Virus record (IMG/VR): IMGVR_UViG_3300028025_001917
Location: 1 to 23,841 of that record
Length of the DNA stretch: 23,841 nt
DNA from: a virus
Reading direction: 5' to 3' (one strand)
Shown: positions 6,305-22,524 of the stretch, piece by piece
How positions within the stretch are numbered: position 1 is the stretch's first letter
How the letters are laid out: each line of letters begins with the position of its first letter
Notes under the pieces: model-generated
What the model was told of the DNA's origin: nothing
Database searches by the model: none
What the model saw: the letters and a program-made list of their open reading frames with translations, nothing else
Program-made: the position numbers and the translations under genes

Positions 6305-7189
6305 TTATCCCCCGTAGGACTGGCGAGACTGCATCTGCGTGAACATCGGCATCAGCAGTTCAGCAATACGACGGCGACGTTCCTGCTCGGTCTCGTCCTG
6401 CTGCTTCTCGTACTCAAACTTCTGTCGCGCCAACTCCGTCTGGCTTTCCAGCGCCCCAGCTTCGGCACGGCCACCAAGCACACTGCCGACACCCTTCGCG
6501 ATGCCACCAAGCATCCGCTCGTTGCGCTCAAGGTAGCCGTCCTTGCCAAACGCATCAGATGCCATGCTTCCCAAGCTGCGCGGCGTCTTTGGCGTAAGCG
6601 CCCCCTTAAACATCCCATCGGTCGTCGCCTGTGGCATCCCAATATCGGGCATCGGCGCTCGGCTAGTCGGGGTCGTGCGAATCATCTTAGACATATCCAT
6701 CTTAGGCAAATCAGCCATCGCACTCGACGGGACAGGGGCTGCGCTTCCAAGCGGCATCCCAATGCCATACCCACCGATGTTGCCCGTGTATGCCGCTGCG
6801 GGAGCAGAAGCCCCTGCGCCAGCCATTGCAGGCTGGAAGCTTCCCGCCGCACCATAGGACGTAGGACCGCCAGCCGTCAGGCCAACCTGCGGAGCGCCCG
6901 TCAGCTTATCCAACGGGCTAGCCGTGAACATCTTGGCAAGGCCACCCTTCGCCGCCTGACCCAGCTTGGCACCACCGTAGCCTTCAAGACCGCCACGGAC
7001 AGCACCGCCCACATCAAGGCCGATCCCGCCCTTGCCGGGACGATCCAAGCCGCCCATCGCGGCACCAAGGGCAGCGCCAACAGCAGGTCCAACACCGGGG
7101 ATGAAGCCAGCCGCAATCGGCGCGACTTTCTTAATCACACCCTTATTCCGATCCCATACGCCCGCTAGTCCACCACGCTTCTTTGCCAT
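6305..7189 (-). CDS. Ejection (internal virion) protein, Gly/Ala-rich, 294 residues
   Basis: The frame is open to an ATG at 7261, but that would overlap the repeat protein. The ATG at 7189 (MAKKRGGLAGVWDRNKG) has an AGAGGA ribosome site about eight bases upstream, so I chose it. Residues ~22-47 (VAPIAAGFIPGVGPAVGAALGAAMGG) are a Gly/Ala hydrophobic stretch that could insert in a membrane. The rest is Gly- and Ala-rich, and the last ~50 residues form a charged coiled coil (ALESQTELARQKFEYEKQQDETEQERRRRIAELLMPMF). Small proteins with a membrane-active Gly-zipper and a helical tail are typical of the first ejection protein of podoviruses, which enters the outer membrane or periplasm during infection. 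I see no lysozyme motif. Confidence 0.7.
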   Translation of the reverse strand: MAKKRGGLAGVWDRNKGVIKKVAPIAAGFIPGVGPAVGAALGAAMGGLDRPGKGGIGLDVGGAVRGGLEGYGGAKLGQAAKGGLAKMFTASPLDKLTGAPQVGLTAGGPTSYGAAGSFQPAMAGAGASAPAAAYTGNIGGYGIGMPLGSAAPVPSSAMADLPKMDMSKMIRTTPTSRAPMPDIGMPQATTDGMFKGALTPKTPRSLGSMASDAFGKDGYLERNERMLGGIAKGVGSVLGGRAEAGALESQTELARQKFEYEKQQDETEQERRRRIAELLMPMFTQMQSRQSYGG

Positions 7190-7212
7190 GTCTCCGTTCC
7201 TCTTGAGTAGGG

Positions 7213-9072
7213 TTATATCCGGTCCATCGTAGCAATGATGGACGCCGTAGACGGTGCCCATGCGCTGGCGATCCTATGCTCCAGCCTGACTGTCGTACTC
7301 GACGCAGCCCAGTACAACTCGACGTAATCGCCAGCCACCAGCGGCAGGTAGTAGTTCCAGCCCGGAAGGACATGGCCGTCCGTAGACCCGTGACGCTTTG
7401 GCACTGAAATGCGCCCCGCCGATCCGACGACATCCACCCCGTTAATTCGCACCCAGATTTCCACGTCCTGTTCGGCAGAGTCCGAGTTGGTAAATTGCCC
7501 GCTCCACTGGAAGTTGTAGTTCCCCGCATACGCCGCTGTCATCCGCGAGCTACTGACCAAGCTAAACCCAGACACCATGTCTACGGTGTCAAACGTAATA
7601 CGGGTGGCCGTGTTGATCGTCGCAATCGTCTGGTCGGTGTAGTCCGAGAACGACCCATACCAGTGCGCCCAGCCAGACTGCACCCATGCGTTACTGACGT
7701 AGGTGTAGGTGTCTCTGGTATCCGTGCAGAAGTAGGTGGCACCCTCTGCGGTGATGGTCGGGCGGCTGATCAGCAGCCCTGACTGCATATGGATCGACGC
7801 ATCGCTGTCATGCGCGTTCAGCGCCACGACCGTGATGTTGTCGTTAGACCGCACCGTGTTGGAGTCGATCACGCCCACCGAGTTGACGGGGCTTGGGAAC
7901 AGGCCAAGCCTGTTTTGCCCGACCTGCGACCTGCGGTAGAAAAACGCCACGTTCCCCCCTGTCAAAGCAAATGATCCGGCACTGCCTACCAGCAGCTTGG
8001 TTTCCAGCAGGATCGCGCTCTGACCCGTCAGCGTAAACGATCCCGCGCCAGAGGTCAGGCGAATCTGGCGACCCAGCGATGCCGCACGACCTGTCAGCGC
8101 AAACGTCCCAACCGCTGCCTGAATCGGACGGTTGACCCGCAACCCCGCCGCTTGCCCAGCCAGCGTAAATGATCCAGCCGCCCCCACCACGATGCGCGAG
8201 ACACTGAGCGATGCGTCGTTGCCGGTCAGCGCAAACGCGCCAACATCGGACGGCATCACTTGGCTCAAGCGCAGGGATGCGTCTTGCCCAGAGGCGACAA
8301 AGGTTCCGGCTGCTGCCTGTACTGCCTTGCCGTACTTGGCGTTCGCCGCTTGGCCGGTCAGCGTAAATGCGCCAACGGCTGAGATCAGCTTTTTGCCAAC
8401 GCCAAAGTTGACAGCGTTGCCAGTCAGCGTGAACGCCGTGGCAGACGCGGTGAGGCGTGTGGCTGACTTGAGTGTGGCCGGTTGCCCTGTCAGGACAAAT
8501 GCGCCAACCGATGATGTCAGCCGCTTGCTGACCTTCAGCGCGGATGACTGCCCAGTCAGCGTAAATGTGCCCACCCCGCCTGTGACAGATTTGCCAGCAC
8601 GGAGGGTGGCGGCTTGTCCTGTCAGCGTGAACGCGCCAACGGACGACGTGAGCTTCTTGCCAAGGCGCAGCGTCGCGGGCTGGCCCGTCAGCGTGAACGG
8701 GCCGACGCTAGAGACAAGGTTCTTGCCAGCCTTGAGTGTCGCAGCCTGTCCCGTCAGCGCAAACGATCCAACCGACGAGGCGCGAGCAACACGGAATCTG
8801 GCAGCGTTGCCCACAACGCTGAACGTGCCAACACCACCTGTGACCGACTTGCCAGCCCGAAGCGTAGCGGGCTGTCCTGCTAGAGCAAACGATCCTGCGT
8901 CAGCCGTGAGGCGCTTAGACGTGCTGAGTGTCGCCGGTTGCCCTGCCAGCGTAAACGCGGCAACAGAGGCGACCAGCGAAAACGCGGTCCCCCCTGCTGC
9001 AGGTTTGATGCCAATGAACCGTTGCTGCCCATACGGTCCCGTGGCGCGGGCTGATACCCGGCGACGTGACAC
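7213..9072 (-). CDS. Repeat-array adhesin with C1q-like C-terminal domain, GTG start
   Basis: The 619-residue protein starts at GTG (GTGTCACGTCGCCGG), the only start consistent with its upstream neighbour. Residues ~37-376 are sixteen copies of a beta-strand repeat with consensus VGAFTLTGQAATLRxGKxLTSS, spaced by exactly 22 residues except for one 20-residue unit. Residues ~393-469 are a module shared with the N-terminus of the tail fibre. Residues ~472-619 look like a C1q/TNF-type jelly roll (GSFSDYTDQTIATINTATRITFDT, AGNYNFQWSGQFTNSD, VEIWVRINGVDV, GDYVELYWAASSTTVRLEH), a fold common at phage tips. It is probably a long, rigid host-binding protein. The repeat DNA may expand or contract by recombination. 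No enzyme motif is seen. Confidence 0.82.
   Translation of the reverse strand: MSRRRVSARATGPYGQQRFIGIKPAAGGTAFSLVASVAAFTLAGQPATLSTSKRLTADAGSFALAGQPATLRAGKSVTGGVGTFSVVGNAARFRVARASSVGSFALTGQAATLKAGKNLVSSVGPFTLTGQPATLRLGKKLTSSVGAFTLTGQAATLRAGKSVTGGVGTFTLTGQSSALKVSKRLTSSVGAFVLTGQPATLKSATRLTASATAFTLTGNAVNFGVGKKLISAVGAFTLTGQAANAKYGKAVQAAAGTFVASGQDASLRLSQVMPSDVGAFALTGNDASLSVSRIVVGAAGSFTLAGQAAGLRVNRPIQAAVGTFALTGRAASLGRQIRLTSGAGSFTLTGQSAILLETKLLVGSAGSFALTGGNVAFFYRRSQVGQNRLGLFPSPVNSVGVIDSNTVRSNDNITVVALNAHDSDASIHMQSGLLISRPTITAEGATYFCTDTRDTYTYVSNAWVQSGWAHWYGSFSDYTDQTIATINTATRITFDTVDMVSGFSLVSSSRMTAAYAGNYNFQWSGQFTNSDSAEQDVEIWVRINGVDVVGSAGRISVPKRHGSTDGHVLPGWNYYLPLVAGDYVELYWAASSTTVRLEHRIASAWAPSTASIIATMDRI
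7945..8964 (-). repeat. Sixteen 66-bp tandem coding repeats (22-residue units)
   Basis: The F of FxLxG occurs at residues 40, 62, 84, 104, 126 and then every 22 up to 368 of the protein, so the DNA period is 66 bases with one 60-base unit (84 to 104). The + strand repeatedly shows the phrase gtcagcgtaaacg and close variants. Units differ by synonymous and conservative changes, so the array is old or under purifying selection rather than a recent pure expansion. Confidence 0.85.
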
Positions 9073-9075
9073 GGC

Positions 9076-9321
9076 TTACGGCGCGGGCTGCGCCATCACA
9101 CACGTCCCTGCGGGCTGGTTCAGCGCCGTATCAAGCGCACTGCACAGATCGTCGTCGCTCCAGTCTGGCACGTTGAGCGGCGGGACCGTCTGCGACAGCA
9201 CGATCTCCGACAGGCGCGGGATCGCTTGGTTCAGCACCGTGTCGTCGATGCTGTACCCGTAGCGCACGTCCACCGTGTTCGCGACAGGATCGACGGCGTA
9301 GGAGGTAATCGTGATGACCAT
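9076..9321 (-). CDS. Small paralogous protein B, PDW-DD-LC family
   Basis: The 81-residue protein (MVITITSYAVDPVANTVDVRYGYSIDDTVLNQ...) is the second member of the family at 11154-11429. It shares VPDWSDDDLCSALDTALNQPAG with SPDWTDDELCAAVATALNVPV, and both start with a short beta half. Unlike paralogue A it lacks the Pro-rich tail. The two copies are separated by four other genes, so a simple tandem duplication was followed by insertions, or the pieces came separately. It precedes the repeat protein, whose GTG start is only three bases past this TAA. Function unknown. Confidence 0.73.
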   Translation of the reverse strand: MVITITSYAVDPVANTVDVRYGYSIDDTVLNQAIPRLSEIVLSQTVPPLNVPDWSDDDLCSALDTALNQPAGTCVMAQPAP

Positions 9322-9332
9322 GTGTGCTCTCG

Positions 9333-10016
9333 TTAAGCGAACGTGGGACGGATGGGCGGCTCTTCGGCAATGTCGAGTCGCCCGGGTGCTACGGGTACAG
9401 TCAGGTTGTTGCCGCTACCAGATTCGTCAACCAAGATGCCGCCAGCGCCGACGCCGACAAATCCCAGCCCAAAGTAGCGCCCTTTTAGGTTTGGATTGAC
9501 GACGGTCGGGTCCATCAGCTTTCTAATGTTTTGTTCAGGGACAGACGCGCCAAGGATGATTTGCAAGTCGAACAGATTGCCAGCGAAGACGCTATTGATT
9601 GCTGGTGATGGTGCTAGCGTAGTCGTGCACGCAGCGTTTGCGGTCGGGACATTTGCGGCTGCGGTGCGACCGACAAGCACACCATTGACATAACCTCGGA
9701 CAACAGAGCCGTCGTAGGTAATGGCAAAGTGCTGCCAAATCCTCTGGTGATGACGATTGTTTGAAGCGGCATTGTATGTGGTGGCTGTCGTTGCCGTTAA
9801 ATGACGCGCTTGCAGTTCCGCAGAGCCAAACGTGATGATGTACCCGTCTCGCGCTGTATTGGCCGTCGAAGATTGTCGAATAATATCTCCGCCACCATTG
9901 TTATTTGGCCCCTTTGCCCAGAACGCGAACGTGTACCCGCCCGTGACGTAGTTCAGTCCCGTGACGTTGGTGCCAGTCGCGTTTGAGTTTGTGCTTAGGC
10001 GGTACACGCTCGGCAT
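9333..10016 (-). CDS. LamG/concanavalin-like binding protein
   Basis: The 227-residue product has a concanavalin-like (LamG/pentraxin) pattern: YTFAFWAKGPNNNGGGDIIRQSS, ARDGYIITFGSAELQARHL, IWQHFAITYDGSVVRGYVNGVLVGRT, then FAGNLFDLQIILGASVPEQNIRKLMD. The W-x-HFAITYDG...GYVNGVLVG stretch is the hallmark of these beta-sandwiches, which bind glycans or proteins. A ~45-residue C-terminal tail (GLGFVGVGAGGILVDESGSGNN) follows. It probably contributes to host-surface binding together with the neighbouring fibre genes. The base composition is more AT rich than the flanks (sampled lines near 47-48% G+C), suggesting recent acquisition. There are no catalytic residues typical of a glycosidase. Confidence 0.8.
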   Translation of the reverse strand: MPSVYRLSTNSNATGTNVTGLNYVTGGYTFAFWAKGPNNNGGGDIIRQSSTANTARDGYIITFGSAELQARHLTATTATTYNAASNNRHHQRIWQHFAITYDGSVVRGYVNGVLVGRTAAANVPTANAACTTTLAPSPAINSVFAGNLFDLQIILGASVPEQNIRKLMDPTVVNPNLKGRYFGLGFVGVGAGGILVDESGSGNNLTVPVAPGRLDIAEEPPIRPTFA

Positions 10017-10018
10017 CG

Positions 10019-10489
10019 TTACTGCGCTTCCATCGTGATCGGCAGGACCTGCACCTCAAAGTTGCCCGCCGTGGCGTTCAACGCTTGGCCGATAGCGTTC
10101 CACACCGCGATGTTATAGTCAGGCGGCAGATCGTAGGCGAGGAACGTCTTGGTGTACGTCGTGTTGGTCGCAGCCGTCACGACAATCGCGCCCAGCACCT
10201 CACCGTTTGTCGGCTCTGCCGCCACGGCGGCATCCGCAGACCCCAACCCGTTGTCCGACAGGTCGGTCGTGTCGTTGCTATGCCGGATGAGATATACACG
10301 AATCGGCGTGCCCGCGTTTGGTGCCGTGCCGCCCGTGGTCACCTTCACGAACACCATCGCCATCGGTGCCCGTGTCGTCGTGTTGTCGATGATCGCCGAC
10401 ACACGCCCTGCGCCGTTGGCTAACGACGCAAGGGTGATGGTCGGCTTAATGATCGTGTGGTACTTGGCTAGAAACTGCGATACCGCCAT
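10019..10489 (-). CDS. Beta-rich virion-associated protein (156 residues)
   Basis: The protein begins MAVSQFLAKYHTIIKPTITLASLANGAGRVSAIIDNTTTRAPMAMVFVKVTTGG and continues with RVYLIRHSNDTTDLSDN, EVLGAIVVTAATNTTYTKTFLAYDLPPDYNIAVWNAIGQAL and FEVQVLPITMEAQ. These phrases resemble a family of small phage proteins found among tail genes and predicted to be jelly-roll or beta-sandwich. The ATG has a GGAGAG ribosome site upstream, after a 22-base gap from the previous gene. The next ATG lies two bases after its TAA. Function is unknown, and a role as fibre-associated or decoration protein is inference. Confidence 0.7.
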   Translation of the reverse strand: MAVSQFLAKYHTIIKPTITLASLANGAGRVSAIIDNTTTRAPMAMVFVKVTTGGTAPNAGTPIRVYLIRHSNDTTDLSDNGLGSADAAVAAEPTNGEVLGAIVVTAATNTTYTKTFLAYDLPPDYNIAVWNAIGQALNATAGNFEVQVLPITMEAQ

Positions 10490-10511
10490 AGACTCTCCGG
10501 TCTGCCAGTGA

Positions 10512-10934
10512 TTACGCCAGCGTCAGGACGCCCGTGGACGGATCGAAGTCTACGGTGAACGAGTCGCCAACGGCCAGCGACACCGCACTCCCGTAATCCC
10601 ACCAGCCGATCAGTTCCTTGTTCGTGGCCGTGTCGTTGTACAGCACAGCGTAACGGAACGTGGCAATCGAACCACCCGATGCCGTCCATGCGGTCGGGTC
10701 GTTCAGCACCAGCTTGTAGGTGCCGCTGGTCTGCGACGACGTAGCCTGCGTGGCCTGATTACCGCCCGCCGTGTAGCCGTTGCCCGCCGTGATCTCCGTG
10801 ATGTCCGTCTTGATCCCGTTCGCCGCCAGCGGCAGCACGTTCGACAGCATCACCTTGAGCGTATCCGTGCCCAGGTTGTGGACCTTCTCCGCGACCGCCT
10901 CAACAAACGGGTCGAACTTATTAAACGTGGCCAT
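10512..10934 (-). CDS. Phage tail-associated hypothetical protein (140 residues)
   Basis: The product opens MATFNKFDPFVEAVAEKVHNLGTDTLKVMLSN and carries ITAGNGYTAGGNQAT, GTYKLVLNDPTAWTASGGSI, FRYAVLYND, LIGWWDYGSAVSLAVGDSFTVDFDPSTGVLTLA. This set of phrases is common in a family of phage and prophage proteins encoded beside tail fibres, and I recall no experimental function for them. The fold looks like a beta domain of the kind found in fibre or baseplate attachments. An AGGTGA ribosome site lies a few bases before the ATG. I regard it as a structural, tail-tip-associated protein by context. Confidence 0.78.
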   Translation of the reverse strand: MATFNKFDPFVEAVAEKVHNLGTDTLKVMLSNVLPLAANGIKTDITEITAGNGYTAGGNQATQATSSQTSGTYKLVLNDPTAWTASGGSIATFRYAVLYNDTATNKELIGWWDYGSAVSLAVGDSFTVDFDPSTGVLTLA

Positions 10935-10941
10935 GTGTCAC

Positions 10942-11151
10942 CTATTCCGTGGGAGTGTCAGCGGATGCGACAGGCACGAACGTGCCCGCGAACGGATCAA
11001 ACGACCAGACGCTCGGGTCACGACCGTCCGACTCAAACGCGATCTTTGCCAACTGATCCCGCTCCGCGACGAATCGGTCAGCGAACTGCTTGCACAACAC
11101 GCGCACGGCCAAGCTGGCCGGTTCACCCTTGGGCTGCATCTGGTCAGTCAT
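10942..11151 (-). CDS. Small protein of unknown function (69 residues)
   Basis: The protein begins MTDQMQPKGEPASLAVRVLCKQFADRFVAERDQLAKIAFES, with a helical stretch from ~12 to 42, and ends in DGRDPSVWSFDPFAGTFVPVASADTPTE. The ATG lies two bases past the previous stop (TAATTATG) and the stop is TAG. It contains one cysteine, and no membrane segment or known motif. Its tight packing with both neighbours and its ribosome context make it likely to be translated. It could be an assembly factor or a small fibre partner, but I cannot say. Confidence 0.6.
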   Translation of the reverse strand: MTDQMQPKGEPASLAVRVLCKQFADRFVAERDQLAKIAFESDGRDPSVWSFDPFAGTFVPVASADTPTE

Positions 11152-11153
11152 AA

Positions 11154-11429
11154 TTAGTTGATAGGGTCAACGGGAGGAACAACAGGCGCAGGGACCGGCG
11201 CGACCGCGACCGACACGTCCGTTACCGGGACGTTTAGCGCCGTCGCCACCGCTGCACAGAGTTCGTCGTCGGTCCAGTCCGGTGACAGATCGTCGCTCTG
11301 GAGCGAGACGCTGGTGCCGACGTAGGTGACGCCAATGGACAGCACCGTGGTTTCGATGCTGCACTGGCAGTCGGTCGTGCCGCTGGTGTAGTTGATCACA
11401 GCGGTCGAGATGGTAACAGGAGTGCTCAT
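11154..11429 (-). CDS. Small paralogous protein A, PDW-DD-LC family
   Basis: The 91-residue product has a strong ribosome site (AAGGAG, five bases before the ATG) that begins within the stop of the fibre gene. An N-terminal beta half (VTISTAVINYTSGTTDCQCSIETTVLSIGV) is followed by SPDWTDDELCAAVATALNVPVTDV and a Pro/Val/Ala-rich tail. The core PDW(S/T)DD(D/E)LC(S/A)A..TALN..P is shared with the 81-residue protein at 9076-9321, so the two are paralogues. I know no function for the family. Its setting between fibre genes suggests a small virion or fibre-associated protein, but that is inference. The last residues are separated from the next start by only TAATTATG. Confidence 0.75.
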   Translation of the reverse strand: MSTPVTISTAVINYTSGTTDCQCSIETTVLSIGVTYVGTSVSLQSDDLSPDWTDDELCAAVATALNVPVTDVSVAVAPVPAPVVPPVDPIN

Positions 11430-11434
11430 GGTTG

Positions 11435-11440
11435 CTCCTT
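11435..11440 (-). promoter_or_regulatory. Ribosome binding site of the 91-residue protein
   Basis: The minus strand reads AAGGAG, a perfect match, five bases before the ATG at 11429 and overlapping the tail fibre stop codon, which couples the two genes. Confidence 0.7.
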
Positions 11441-13607
11441 ATGCGTTCGCGATAGTAGTGACGGTGCCGCTCGACCCGCGATATTTGAGTGCACCACCTT
11501 CGACGTACAGTTGACCCATGCCAGCAGGCGAGGTGGTCGGGGCCGTGCCGTTGCCTATGGCAATGACCTTCGCCGCAGACGTGCCAAACGAGGTTGCGCC
11601 CACGCCGACATTGCCTGTTGCGGTAACACGCATCACCTCGGCTGAGGACGCCTTATCAAAGAAGCGCGTGATATCAGATGAGAGGATCAATTCACCTGTA
11701 CCGGCTGCGCCAATGCTCGGGTATGTGGCACTGCTTAACCCAAGCCAAAGCTGTGTAGCGCCCGAACTCACAACCGCCTTGCCGCTCAGGTACACGTCCT
11801 TCGGCCTGCTGACCCCGCTCCCGCCGATGTCGTAGGTCGCGTCGGTACCGGCAAGAAAATGCCCGCTGGCCGAGATGCGCCACACCTCATTCCACGTGAT
11901 GACATTCCCAGCCGTGCCAGACGGTGCGTTATACCAAACGTGTCCACCCGTCGCACTTCCGTTGACAAAGTACCCAGCCGCAGGGTTCCCTGAGTTTGTG
12001 TAGCGGTACTGGCCACCGTCGTAGCGCGCATTTGCAAGCGCCCGAATATCACACGCTTGGGGGGACCATATCGCGTTGCCGACGTTATTGATTTCAATCG
12101 CCTTGCCAACACCACCCCACGCACTTGGCGTGACGCCAATGCCGAGGTTGCCACTCGCATCCAGCGTCATCGCTTGCACAAGCGTGATCGCGTTACCGGC
12201 GGTGCCACTGGGCGCATTGTACCAGCGATGCTGGCCGAGGGCCAGCGAGTACGCGCCAGCCGCAGCGTTTTGCTTGTACCGGAACGTGCTACCAGAGTCG
12301 ATGTACGCATTGAAATACAAGTCGGCTGCACTAGCCGATCCGATCAGCGCCATCGAGTTGCCAACGTCAATCGCCTTGTAGCTGCTGTTCCACGCACTCG
12401 GCGTGACCCCAAGGCCGAGGTTGCCGGAGGAGTCGATGCGGGCGCGTTCGGTTGAATTGGTCAGGAAAGAAATCGGCGTAGCACCGCCTGCGACAACTGA
12501 CAAGCCATTCGTAAACGTGGAATCGCTTTGCAGGACAGCGCGGTTTGGGAACGTCGTGTGCGCGGCTGAATACGCCCGCATCTGGAAGCTGCCAACGGCG
12601 CTTGCTGCCGTCACTGCACCAAACGCGCTCGACCCCGTATTCAGATTGCGAACAAACAATCCATCCGACGCATTTACATCGGTTTCAACTTGCAGCTTGA
12701 TGGTCGGCGTTGCCGTGCCTACGCCGACACGGTTGTTCGTCGCGTCAACGTAGAACGTGTTCGTGTCTACGGTAAGGTTGCCTACACCGTCCAGACGCAT
12801 CCGTTCAGCACCACTGTTTGCAAACGTCAGAGCGGTTGAACTTGCCGGATTAGAAATAACCCAGCTTTCGTTAGCGTCTTGGAACAGTTGCAGTCCAGCC
12901 GCTGACCCACTCGGCGTGTTGACCATCAACACCTGTGAGTTGCTTGCGGCTCCCGTGCCAACTTTTGTATTGCCAACAACGTGCAGCGGAGCAATCGGAC
13001 TGACCGTGCCGATACCGACACGGTTGTTCGTCGCGTCTACGAACAGCGTGTTGGTGTCAAACGTCGCGTTGCCGCTGACCGTCAACGTGCCCAACGTGCC
13101 CACGCTGGTCAGGCTGCTGGCCGTCACGCCACTGTTCAACGTGCTGCCCGTCAACGTGCCAGCCGCTGCCGTCACGGTGATATCTGCCGTGCCGTTGAAC
13201 GCCACGCCGTTGATGTTGCGGGCTGTCTGGAGCGCCGTGGCCGTGCTGGCGTTGCCCGTCACAGGCCCCGTCACCGAGGCCGTCAGTGTCCCCGTGACGG
13301 TCATGTTGCCCGTGACCGTGCCGCCATTCGTGGACAGGTACGACAGTTCGTACCATGCGCTGCCGTCGTCAAAGAAGAGACGGTAGCTGCTCGGGTCCGT
13401 GGTCAGCCACTTCCGGCCCAGCGACCCCGGCGAGGAGCGGGTCGCCAGCGACGACGACTGAACGTGCAGCCCACCGTCTGCATCGTGATCCACATACGCC
13501 GAACGCAAGTTGTTGTCGTTGCCTTTGACAACCGTGGCGTCGAGCGTGTCGCCGTTGCTGGGCGACGTAAACACAGCAACGCCATGTGTTCCTACGGTCT
13601 GTGCCAT
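11439..13607 (-). CDS. Tail fibre protein (major receptor-binding candidate)
   Basis: The 722-residue protein follows the nozzle gene directly. Residues 14-90 form a module shared with the 619-residue protein at 7213-9072 (NDN, HD, H-x-QS, TD and AW at matching spacing). Then come repeats typical of fibre shafts, such as [30 protein letters not shown], several [12 protein letters not shown] units, and two long copies of a unit with SGNLGxGVTPSAW and [10 protein letters not shown]. The ending ([36 protein letters not shown]) is the common C-terminus of phage tail fibres. There is no S74 peptidase chaperone domain or other catalytic motif. It most likely trimerises as an elongated fibre that contacts the host surface. 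Internal DNA repeats could allow recombination of the shaft. Confidence 0.83.
11874..12434 (-). repeat. Two tandem copies of a ~91-96-residue unit in the tail fibre gene
   Basis: Within the fibre gene the unit beginning D-x-SGNLGxGVTPSAW...KAI and continuing to [13 protein letters not shown] occurs twice. The first copy is about 273 bases (12434-12162) and the second about 288 bases (12161-11874). DNA identity is high in places, for example around 12118-12152 against 12391-12425. A third SASGH start at 11873 begins a further, diverged unit. Confidence 0.7.
12724..13037 (-). repeat. Direct repeat of 23 identical bases inside the fibre gene
   Basis: Bases 12724-12746 and 13015-13037 are identical, 291 bases apart. 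They encode the N-N-R-V-G turn of the VDATNNRVG motif in two neighbouring fibre repeats, and the following bases stay similar ([10 protein letters not shown] against [10 protein letters not shown]). Confidence 0.75.
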
Positions 13608-22080: not shown

Positions 22081-22524
22081 TTATATCGGGAAGAACACAT
22101 CAGTGTTTTCATCTTCCACCTTTGCTTCTCCTCCCCAGTACGGCTGACACTCTCCGCAAGCGCAACGACCCTCAAGGTACAATGCAGCAAAGCGAAGAAG
22201 TTCTGGGTTATCTCGAAAATGCCCGAGACCCATGTTGCACCTCATGCACAACCCGCCGCGTACGTGTCCAGTGCTGTGGTCATGGTCTACGGCAAACTTT
22301 TCATCTTTCGGATCACCGCAAATTACACATTCTGTCAAAGCGCGAGCTTCGTATCCCCGCTTTTTGTCAGAAACGCCTTTTGGCAATACCGTTCCACGTT
22401 TGTACTCAGAACGGCATTGACGGCACCATGAATCTAGACCGTTATGCTTTTTGTTGTGCAATGGGAAAAATTCAGCGGTTGCTGGCTTTTCTGTTTTGCA
22501 TCGCGTGCAGGTCAGCATTCCCAT
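22081..22524 (-). CDS. Endonuclease VII-type HNH endonuclease
   Basis: This 147-residue protein resembles the recombination endonuclease VII family (T4 gp49-like) of His-Me finger nucleases, which cut branched DNA or act as free-standing homing-type nucleases. Visible motifs are zinc-binding CxxC pairs at residues 66-69 and 93-96, the catalytic VDHDH at 79-83, TGHVRGGLC at 85-93, and CN at 96-97. These parallel the zinc cysteines, Asp-His and Asn of T4 endonuclease VII. An extra pair of CxxC motifs (residues 6-9 and 34-37) forms an N-terminal zinc knuckle common in phage relatives, and three more cysteines lie at 121-126. The base composition is more AT rich than the flanks: two sampled 60-base lines are 40% and 50% G+C, against about 62% in a sampled capsid-gene line. 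This suggests later acquisition. It could resolve packaging-blocking branches or be a selfish element. Confidence 0.88.
   Translation of the reverse strand: MGMLTCTRCKTEKPATAEFFPLHNKKHNGLDSWCRQCRSEYKRGTVLPKGVSDKKRGYEARALTECVICGDPKDEKFAVDHDHSTGHVRGGLCMRCNMGLGHFRDNPELLRFAALYLEGRCACGECQPYWGGEAKVEDENTDVFFPI

Follow-up and report, generated by a model that had tools for sequence, protein, structure and literature searches.

The window analysed here, the whole 23,841-nucleotide stretch of IMG/VR virus record IMGVR_UViG_3300028025_001917, carries on its minus strand a gene for a protein built largely of a 22-residue repeat, followed by a putative C1q-like head and flanked by a small set of linked genes. 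The features on which our argument draws are these:

7213..9072, minus strand: gene of the array-head protein, 619 aa, GTG start
8956..9072, minus strand: residues 1-39, the N-terminal leader (relative L032 shows 77% identity over residues 2-71)
7906..8955, minus strand: array of 16 units, residues 40-389, for which a beta-solenoid of three strands to the unit is predicted; unit 16 enters the next domain
8764..8823, minus strand: unit 3, the sole 20-residue unit by motif spacing
7708..7929, minus strand: domain, residues ~382-455, common to the N-terminus of the neighbouring tail fibre
7216..7665, minus strand: predicted C1q/TNF-like head, residues ~470-619, from BFVD and fold matches
9076..9321, minus strand: small cassette gene immediately upstream of that for the array, with 88% identity in L032
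9333..10016, minus strand: cassette protein with a LamG/ConA-like lectin fold (PF13385, E 1.6e-13)
10019..10489, minus strand: 156-aa cassette gene, 82% identical in L032, with a faint likeness to the Bxb1 tail wing arm (E 0.43)
10512..10934, minus strand: phrog_644 protein, 140 aa, the linked partner and a probable fibre adaptor (PHROGs, linkage, fold)
13320..13607, minus strand: N-terminal domain of tail-fibre gene 11439-13607, paralogous to array-protein residues ~384-455
7923..13274, minus strand: approximate segment absent from relative L001 (MCP 96% identical); it covers the tail fibre from residue ~111 onward and reaches array-protein residue ~384

L032 has the same GTG start of the array gene and agrees with the window at 29 of the 30 bases upstream of it. 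A program-called open reading frame at 6305-7261 overlaps the array gene, but its start more likely lies at 7189 (MAKKRGG, with AGAGGAACGGAGAC before it), past the array stop. The small genes at 9076-9321 and 11154-11429, which flank the cassette, are apparently distant paralogues of each other, and an endonuclease VII-like gene (phrog_2633, E 4.6e-28) lies near the portal end of the window at 22081-22524.

The F-x-L-x-G motif that defines the repeat starts at residues 40, 62, 84 and 104 and then at every 22nd residue up to 368, confirming the sixteen units claimed in a preliminary description of this DNA. The same description had held the phase to be exact at 22 residues save for one step of 20, and this is borne out over the 15 intervals measured, 14 of which span 22 residues and one 20. 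When the array protein is compared with itself at a shift of 22 residues, the identity is 0.416, as against 0.100 +/- 0.016 with a maximum of 0.158 for the shuffled stretch (n=1000), which excludes chance as the source of the repeat; self-identity also follows at shifts of 44, 66 and 88. At the DNA level the units have a mean pairwise identity of 0.49 and a maximum of 0.74, no pair of 66-base windows within the array reaches at least 85% identity, and Tandem Repeats Finder, run on the window DNA, does not report the array. Judged by their divergence, the units of the window array are old at the DNA level.

Both model-based and model-independent evidence points to regular beta structure rather than disorder, as the preliminary description had expected. 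Single-sequence AlphaFold2 (AF2) places strands at unit positions 1-4, 8-12 and 15-18, that is three per unit, and residues 40-240 of the model reach a pLDDT of about 80-93. When residues 29-361 are aligned with solved structures, beta-helix phage tailspikes come out on top (6e1r, Z 13.9, rmsd 4.0, 268 residues aligned; next 8iq9, Z 12.5, and 7xyc, Z 10.5), on a scale where, for repeats, a Z below about 13 can reflect a common arrangement. Searching PDB sequences with the array protein found no beta-helix and returned two chance matches only. When given near-perfect repeats, AF2 has a known tendency to produce beta-solenoids that are confident but false, often with buried charges (PMC11795689), and given this bias we sought evidence independent of AF2 in the composition of unit positions and in step lengths. 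In a set of 814 distinct 22-residue units drawn from related phages, hydrophobic residues make up 85-100%, and charged ones no more than 4%, at positions 1, 3, 8, 10, 16 and 18, the charges sitting at positions 7, 9, 11, 12, 14, 15, 17 and 19. Over 104 complete arrays we counted 1028 unit steps of 18, 20, 22, 24 or 26 residues, as against 37 of odd length; when length shifts by two residues, the in/out pattern of a beta-strand is preserved, which fits a need of a solenoid. We therefore think a flexible or partly disordered linker, with the predicted solenoid an AF2 artefact, a very unlikely account of the repeat, even though the bias of AF2 towards solenoids for repeats speaks for that reading, because a linker would need neither six strictly hydrophobic, nearly charge-free positions per unit nor even-numbered length changes. 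The units of the window are, moreover, only about 40% identical and their core is free of charge, which lessens the concern, while the caveat of AF2 bias still stands for the modelled window array.

The tailspike matches raise another reading, in which the solenoid itself would be the glycan-contacting surface, as in beta-helix tailspikes, and the C1q head an accessory. Besides finding support in these best fold matches, it would suit the many arrays that lack a C1q head and end instead in short tails such as ...QDPNW... or ...TVYIAP.... We nevertheless consider it improbable, since the uniform units have short loops and lack long insertions able to form a catalytic groove, and whole units are gained or lost without other change. 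We prefer to see the predicted solenoid as a stem. Solenoids in general rise by about 4.8 A per coil, so that sixteen units would form a rod of about 77 A by this general geometry.

The picture of the array as a stem between the N-terminus and the head, also put forward in the preliminary description, proved too simple in one respect, because array and head are not joined directly and a separate, anchor-type domain (residues ~384-455) lies between them. This domain is homologous to the first ~90 residues of tail-fibre gene 11439-13607, and the two share the invariant residues N-D-N ... H-D ... H..S. If the fibre-type domain, C-terminal to the array as it is, serves as the tail anchor, then tail and head would not have the rod between them. 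The C1q-like nature ascribed to the head, on the other hand, was upheld: matches in BFVD include a 'C1q domain containing protein' at 46% identity, along with others, at E below 1e-5; alignments with C1q/TNF-like phage heads reach an identity of up to 54%; fold matches comprise TNF ligands, C1QL1, Cbln1 and a cyanophage short-tail-fibre domain; and the head homologue in L111 gives a weak BclA_C match (E 1.5e-4) that falls below Pfam's curated cut-off. From these matches, the C-terminus of the array protein, its last ~120 residues, looks like a jelly-roll fold of C1q/TNF type, a head that by analogy presumably binds the host surface.

The array gene is tightly linked to phrog_644, a family annotated in PHROGs as of unknown function. 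It is present in 36 of the 37 array loci that extend at least 5 kb upstream of the array, and pairs of array and phrog_644 all lie on the same strand, with the array downstream in 53 of 57 loci. Viewed from the other gene, 34 phrog_644 loci extend 6 kb or more downstream; 22 of these hold an array, always downstream and on the same strand, and six of the remaining 12, first scored as array-free, hold about one to five repeats on re-check. These mini-arrays, each about one to five repeats long and joined to other C-termini in the vicinity of phrog_644, lie at:

L205, 485-1018
L213, 5876-6652
L215, 10421-10909
L216, 12354-12659
L222, 7679-8083
L223, 1625-2386

Control loci found through the C1q head alone (n=69) contain neither an array (0) nor phrog_644 (0). 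The linkage holds among 50,697 phage records as well, where all five records with an array fall among the 21 with phrog_644.

We modelled the phrog_644 protein with AF2 from 57 sequences (pLDDT 95). The best alignment of this model is to 8jou_a, which is the fibre-tail adaptor in phage GP4 (VIA Z 8.8, 121 of 136 residues, 15% identity); the ten entries that follow are without exception phage proteins of the neck, baseplate, arm or fibre, and the first unrelated one scores 3.6. A Foldseek search with the model yielded nothing significant (best E 0.64), and an HMM search with phrog_644 gave no significant match. Judging from the modelled fold, we suggest that the phrog_644 protein is probably an adaptor or collar carrying the appendage on the tail. 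In the GP4 fibre, a fibril has been placed between the adhesin and the tail collar (PMC13243795).

A relative of phrog_644 at 57% identity, Pam1_09, is encoded between the needle-head and needle genes of Pseudanabaena phage Pam1 (L146 7866-8279). The virion structure of Pam1 has been solved, and since phrog_644 searches of PDB sequences found no match, Pam1_09 seems to be absent from its built chains. Elsewhere phrog_644-like genes occur as tandem pairs (L036 3592-4471, L067 5334-6207, L083 7525-8405, L094 5679-6544, L110 547-1403, L124 828-1701 and L127 6297-7216), one copy being strongly diverged in most.

The neighbourhood also bears on where in the virion the array protein would sit. In Acinetobacter phage phiAC-1 a gene with a related C1q domain lies directly 3' of that of the major head protein, an arrangement that would suit a fibre or decoration on the capsid (head) more than one on the tail. 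We hold such a capsid location to be unlikely for the window protein, however, whose gene sits between the tail fibre and presumed internal virion proteins, whose domain preceding the head is common to the tail fibre, and whose partner phrog_644 resembles tail-fibre adaptors and in Pam1 has its place between needle head and needle. A location on the tail is the one we infer.

Comparison with relatives shows that the cassette comes and goes. L001 and L009, with a capsid protein 96% identical to that of the window, are without array and phrog_644, as are eight further relatives (capsid 72-77% identical where in the locus), and all of these keep the head as a stand-alone gene directly after the fibre gene. 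Because array and phrog_644 are missing from such close relatives, about 5.3 kb of the window count as an extra segment. L032 shares the leader of the window protein and has neighbours that are 82-88% identical and 13 units, with no C1q head across its whole 36.8-kb record; in L051 and L174 the protein has seven units and ends after the fibre-type domain, and in L181 seven units are followed by a head. From these sequences, the array is best read as an exchangeable stem module of a virion fibre.

Scans of the window protein against Pfam and PHROGs gave no match above the curated cut-offs, and neither collection describes a model of the array, which is new here. Pfam matches of other arrays (for example to the YscD domain) fall on the repeats, belong to unrelated domains and look like repeat or composition artefacts, and we set them aside. 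Literature searches for the repeat strings of the array and for repeat number in tail fibres found no papers in the library searched. IMG/VR was searched by a two-unit DNA pattern, and among the matches listed the array appears common among uncultured phages, with about 2 to 36 units. The five reference phage records (of 50,697) that contain it, each without a named host, are EBPR siphovirus 2 and four near-identical Manatee Spring genomes. In EBPR siphovirus 2 (L132, JF412297) a 'CAP CRISPR match' annotated at 7345-7361, in the gene adjoining the array gene, hints at the host. Bacterial genome contigs, mostly alphaproteobacterial MAGs, gave 11 matches to the two-repeat pattern, of which seven hold arrays, six of them with phrog_644 nearby; the other four contain no array by profile. 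An N-terminal signature, M-L-x-F-x-P-I/L ... P-L-A/S, is found in 62 of 123 arrays, has no convincing instance in other open reading frames of the loci, and is absent from the N-terminus of the window protein itself. Separately, L133 (PQ492659, Limnohabitans phage DC33) is a 39-kb genome with a C1q-head gene whose Inoviridae label looks wrong.

The number of units differs widely among complete arrays, from 4 to 36 by motif count, with shorter arrays also present. L019 and L118 have 34 units and L036 and L114 have 36, and outside one gap their genes are 92.8% identical, the gap being single, in frame and 132 bases long, exactly two units. In a second set, L050, L086, L093 and L091 have 16, 23, 28 and 34 units between the same ends, with downstream DNA about 95% identical; L091 and L093 differ by gaps of exactly 198 and 132 bases, and in L050 adjacent 66-base windows are 100% identical, which argues for recent duplication. 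In these two length-variable lineages, which the kind of sequences around them, rather than sample metadata, suggests to be marine, the flanks are 93-96% identical and the unit number differs by whole units. Array-and-head genes of 463-465 aa that are 84-90% identical, in contrast, keep a constant unit number (L192 and L194: 90.9% DNA identity, no gaps), and L101 and L109 are 95.3% identical, also without gaps. Since both variable and constant lineages are found, unit number can change by whole units, but does not do so everywhere. The window array, with its diverged units, gives no sign of recent unit change. Of the hypervariable length dial proposed in the preliminary description, the difference in copy number among relatives thus stands, whereas hypervariability of the window array itself finds no support, its units being diverged and the unit number of the related 463-465-aa genes constant. 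A constant copy number together with disorder, the outcome named there as contrary to such a role, was looked for and not found, because a regular beta structure is predicted and copy number differs among relatives. A stem of adjustable length is, by the whole-unit changes in relatives, a fair hypothesis for the family rather than for the window array.

On balance we think it probable that the array serves a virion fibre or adhesin as its stem, made of solenoid coils and borne on an exchangeable cassette with the phrog_644 adaptor, here with a coupling domain and a C1q head. In this model, each 22-residue unit would form one three-stranded coil of a parallel beta-solenoid; with one coil per unit, the number of units would set the length of the rod. 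The array gene and phrog_644 would make up the exchangeable cassette, the phrog_644 protein carrying the appendage on the tail, and in this phage the rod would be fused to the fibre-type coupling domain and then to the C1q-type head that presumably contacts the host surface. The repeat with its strand-like pattern, the linkage of the genes, the coming and going of the module and the changes by whole units in relatives are observed; the solenoid, head and adaptor folds are predictions, and which part binds which, like any effect on reach, we infer. Judged from its genes, the cassette appears to work like a modular fibre. More tentatively, and with some doubt, we propose that phrog_644 and the 22-residue solenoid may together form a plug-in fibre system that is general among uncultured tailed phages, in which one adaptor would carry a rod of interchangeable coils with many exchangeable tips, and gain or loss of coils would provide a fast evolutionary setting of length. 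Fibre length and tip decide the reach of a phage to its receptor, and a rod that changes in whole steps, between known flanks and with a fixed partner gene, would make the effect of length on adsorption directly testable. Both phrog_644 and a repeat family absent from Pfam and PHROGs gain a probable function.

Among similar known systems is the gp34-36 cassette of Alishewanella phage LSH1, which like the array cassette is fibre-like and occurs in only part, about half, of related genomes, with one protein that resembles a GP4 fibril and with poorly predicted beta-helical stretches; its description also sets it apart, as no 22-residue repeat is given (PMC13243795). The fibre-tail adaptor of Ralstonia phage GP4 (8jou) offers a structural counterpart to the phrog_644 protein, which aligns with it over 121 of 136 residues at Z 8.8, though at 15% identity and with no significant Foldseek or HMM match. 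No arrays were found in PDB sequences. For the head, the short tail fibre of cyanophage A-1(L) (8ke9) and the C1q-domain phage proteins of BFVD share the predicted jelly-roll, and unlike the window protein most C1q phage proteins are without an array (0 of 69 control loci). Tailspikes, namely those of Acinetobacter phage P1 (6e1r) and Klebsiella phage K2-2 (8iq9) and gp52 of Kp7 (7xyc), have three strands per turn, as predicted for the array; their coils, however, are irregular, with long loops and an active site, whereas the array combines a uniform 22-residue unit, free of enzyme-like insertions, with a variable number of repeats and a separate head.
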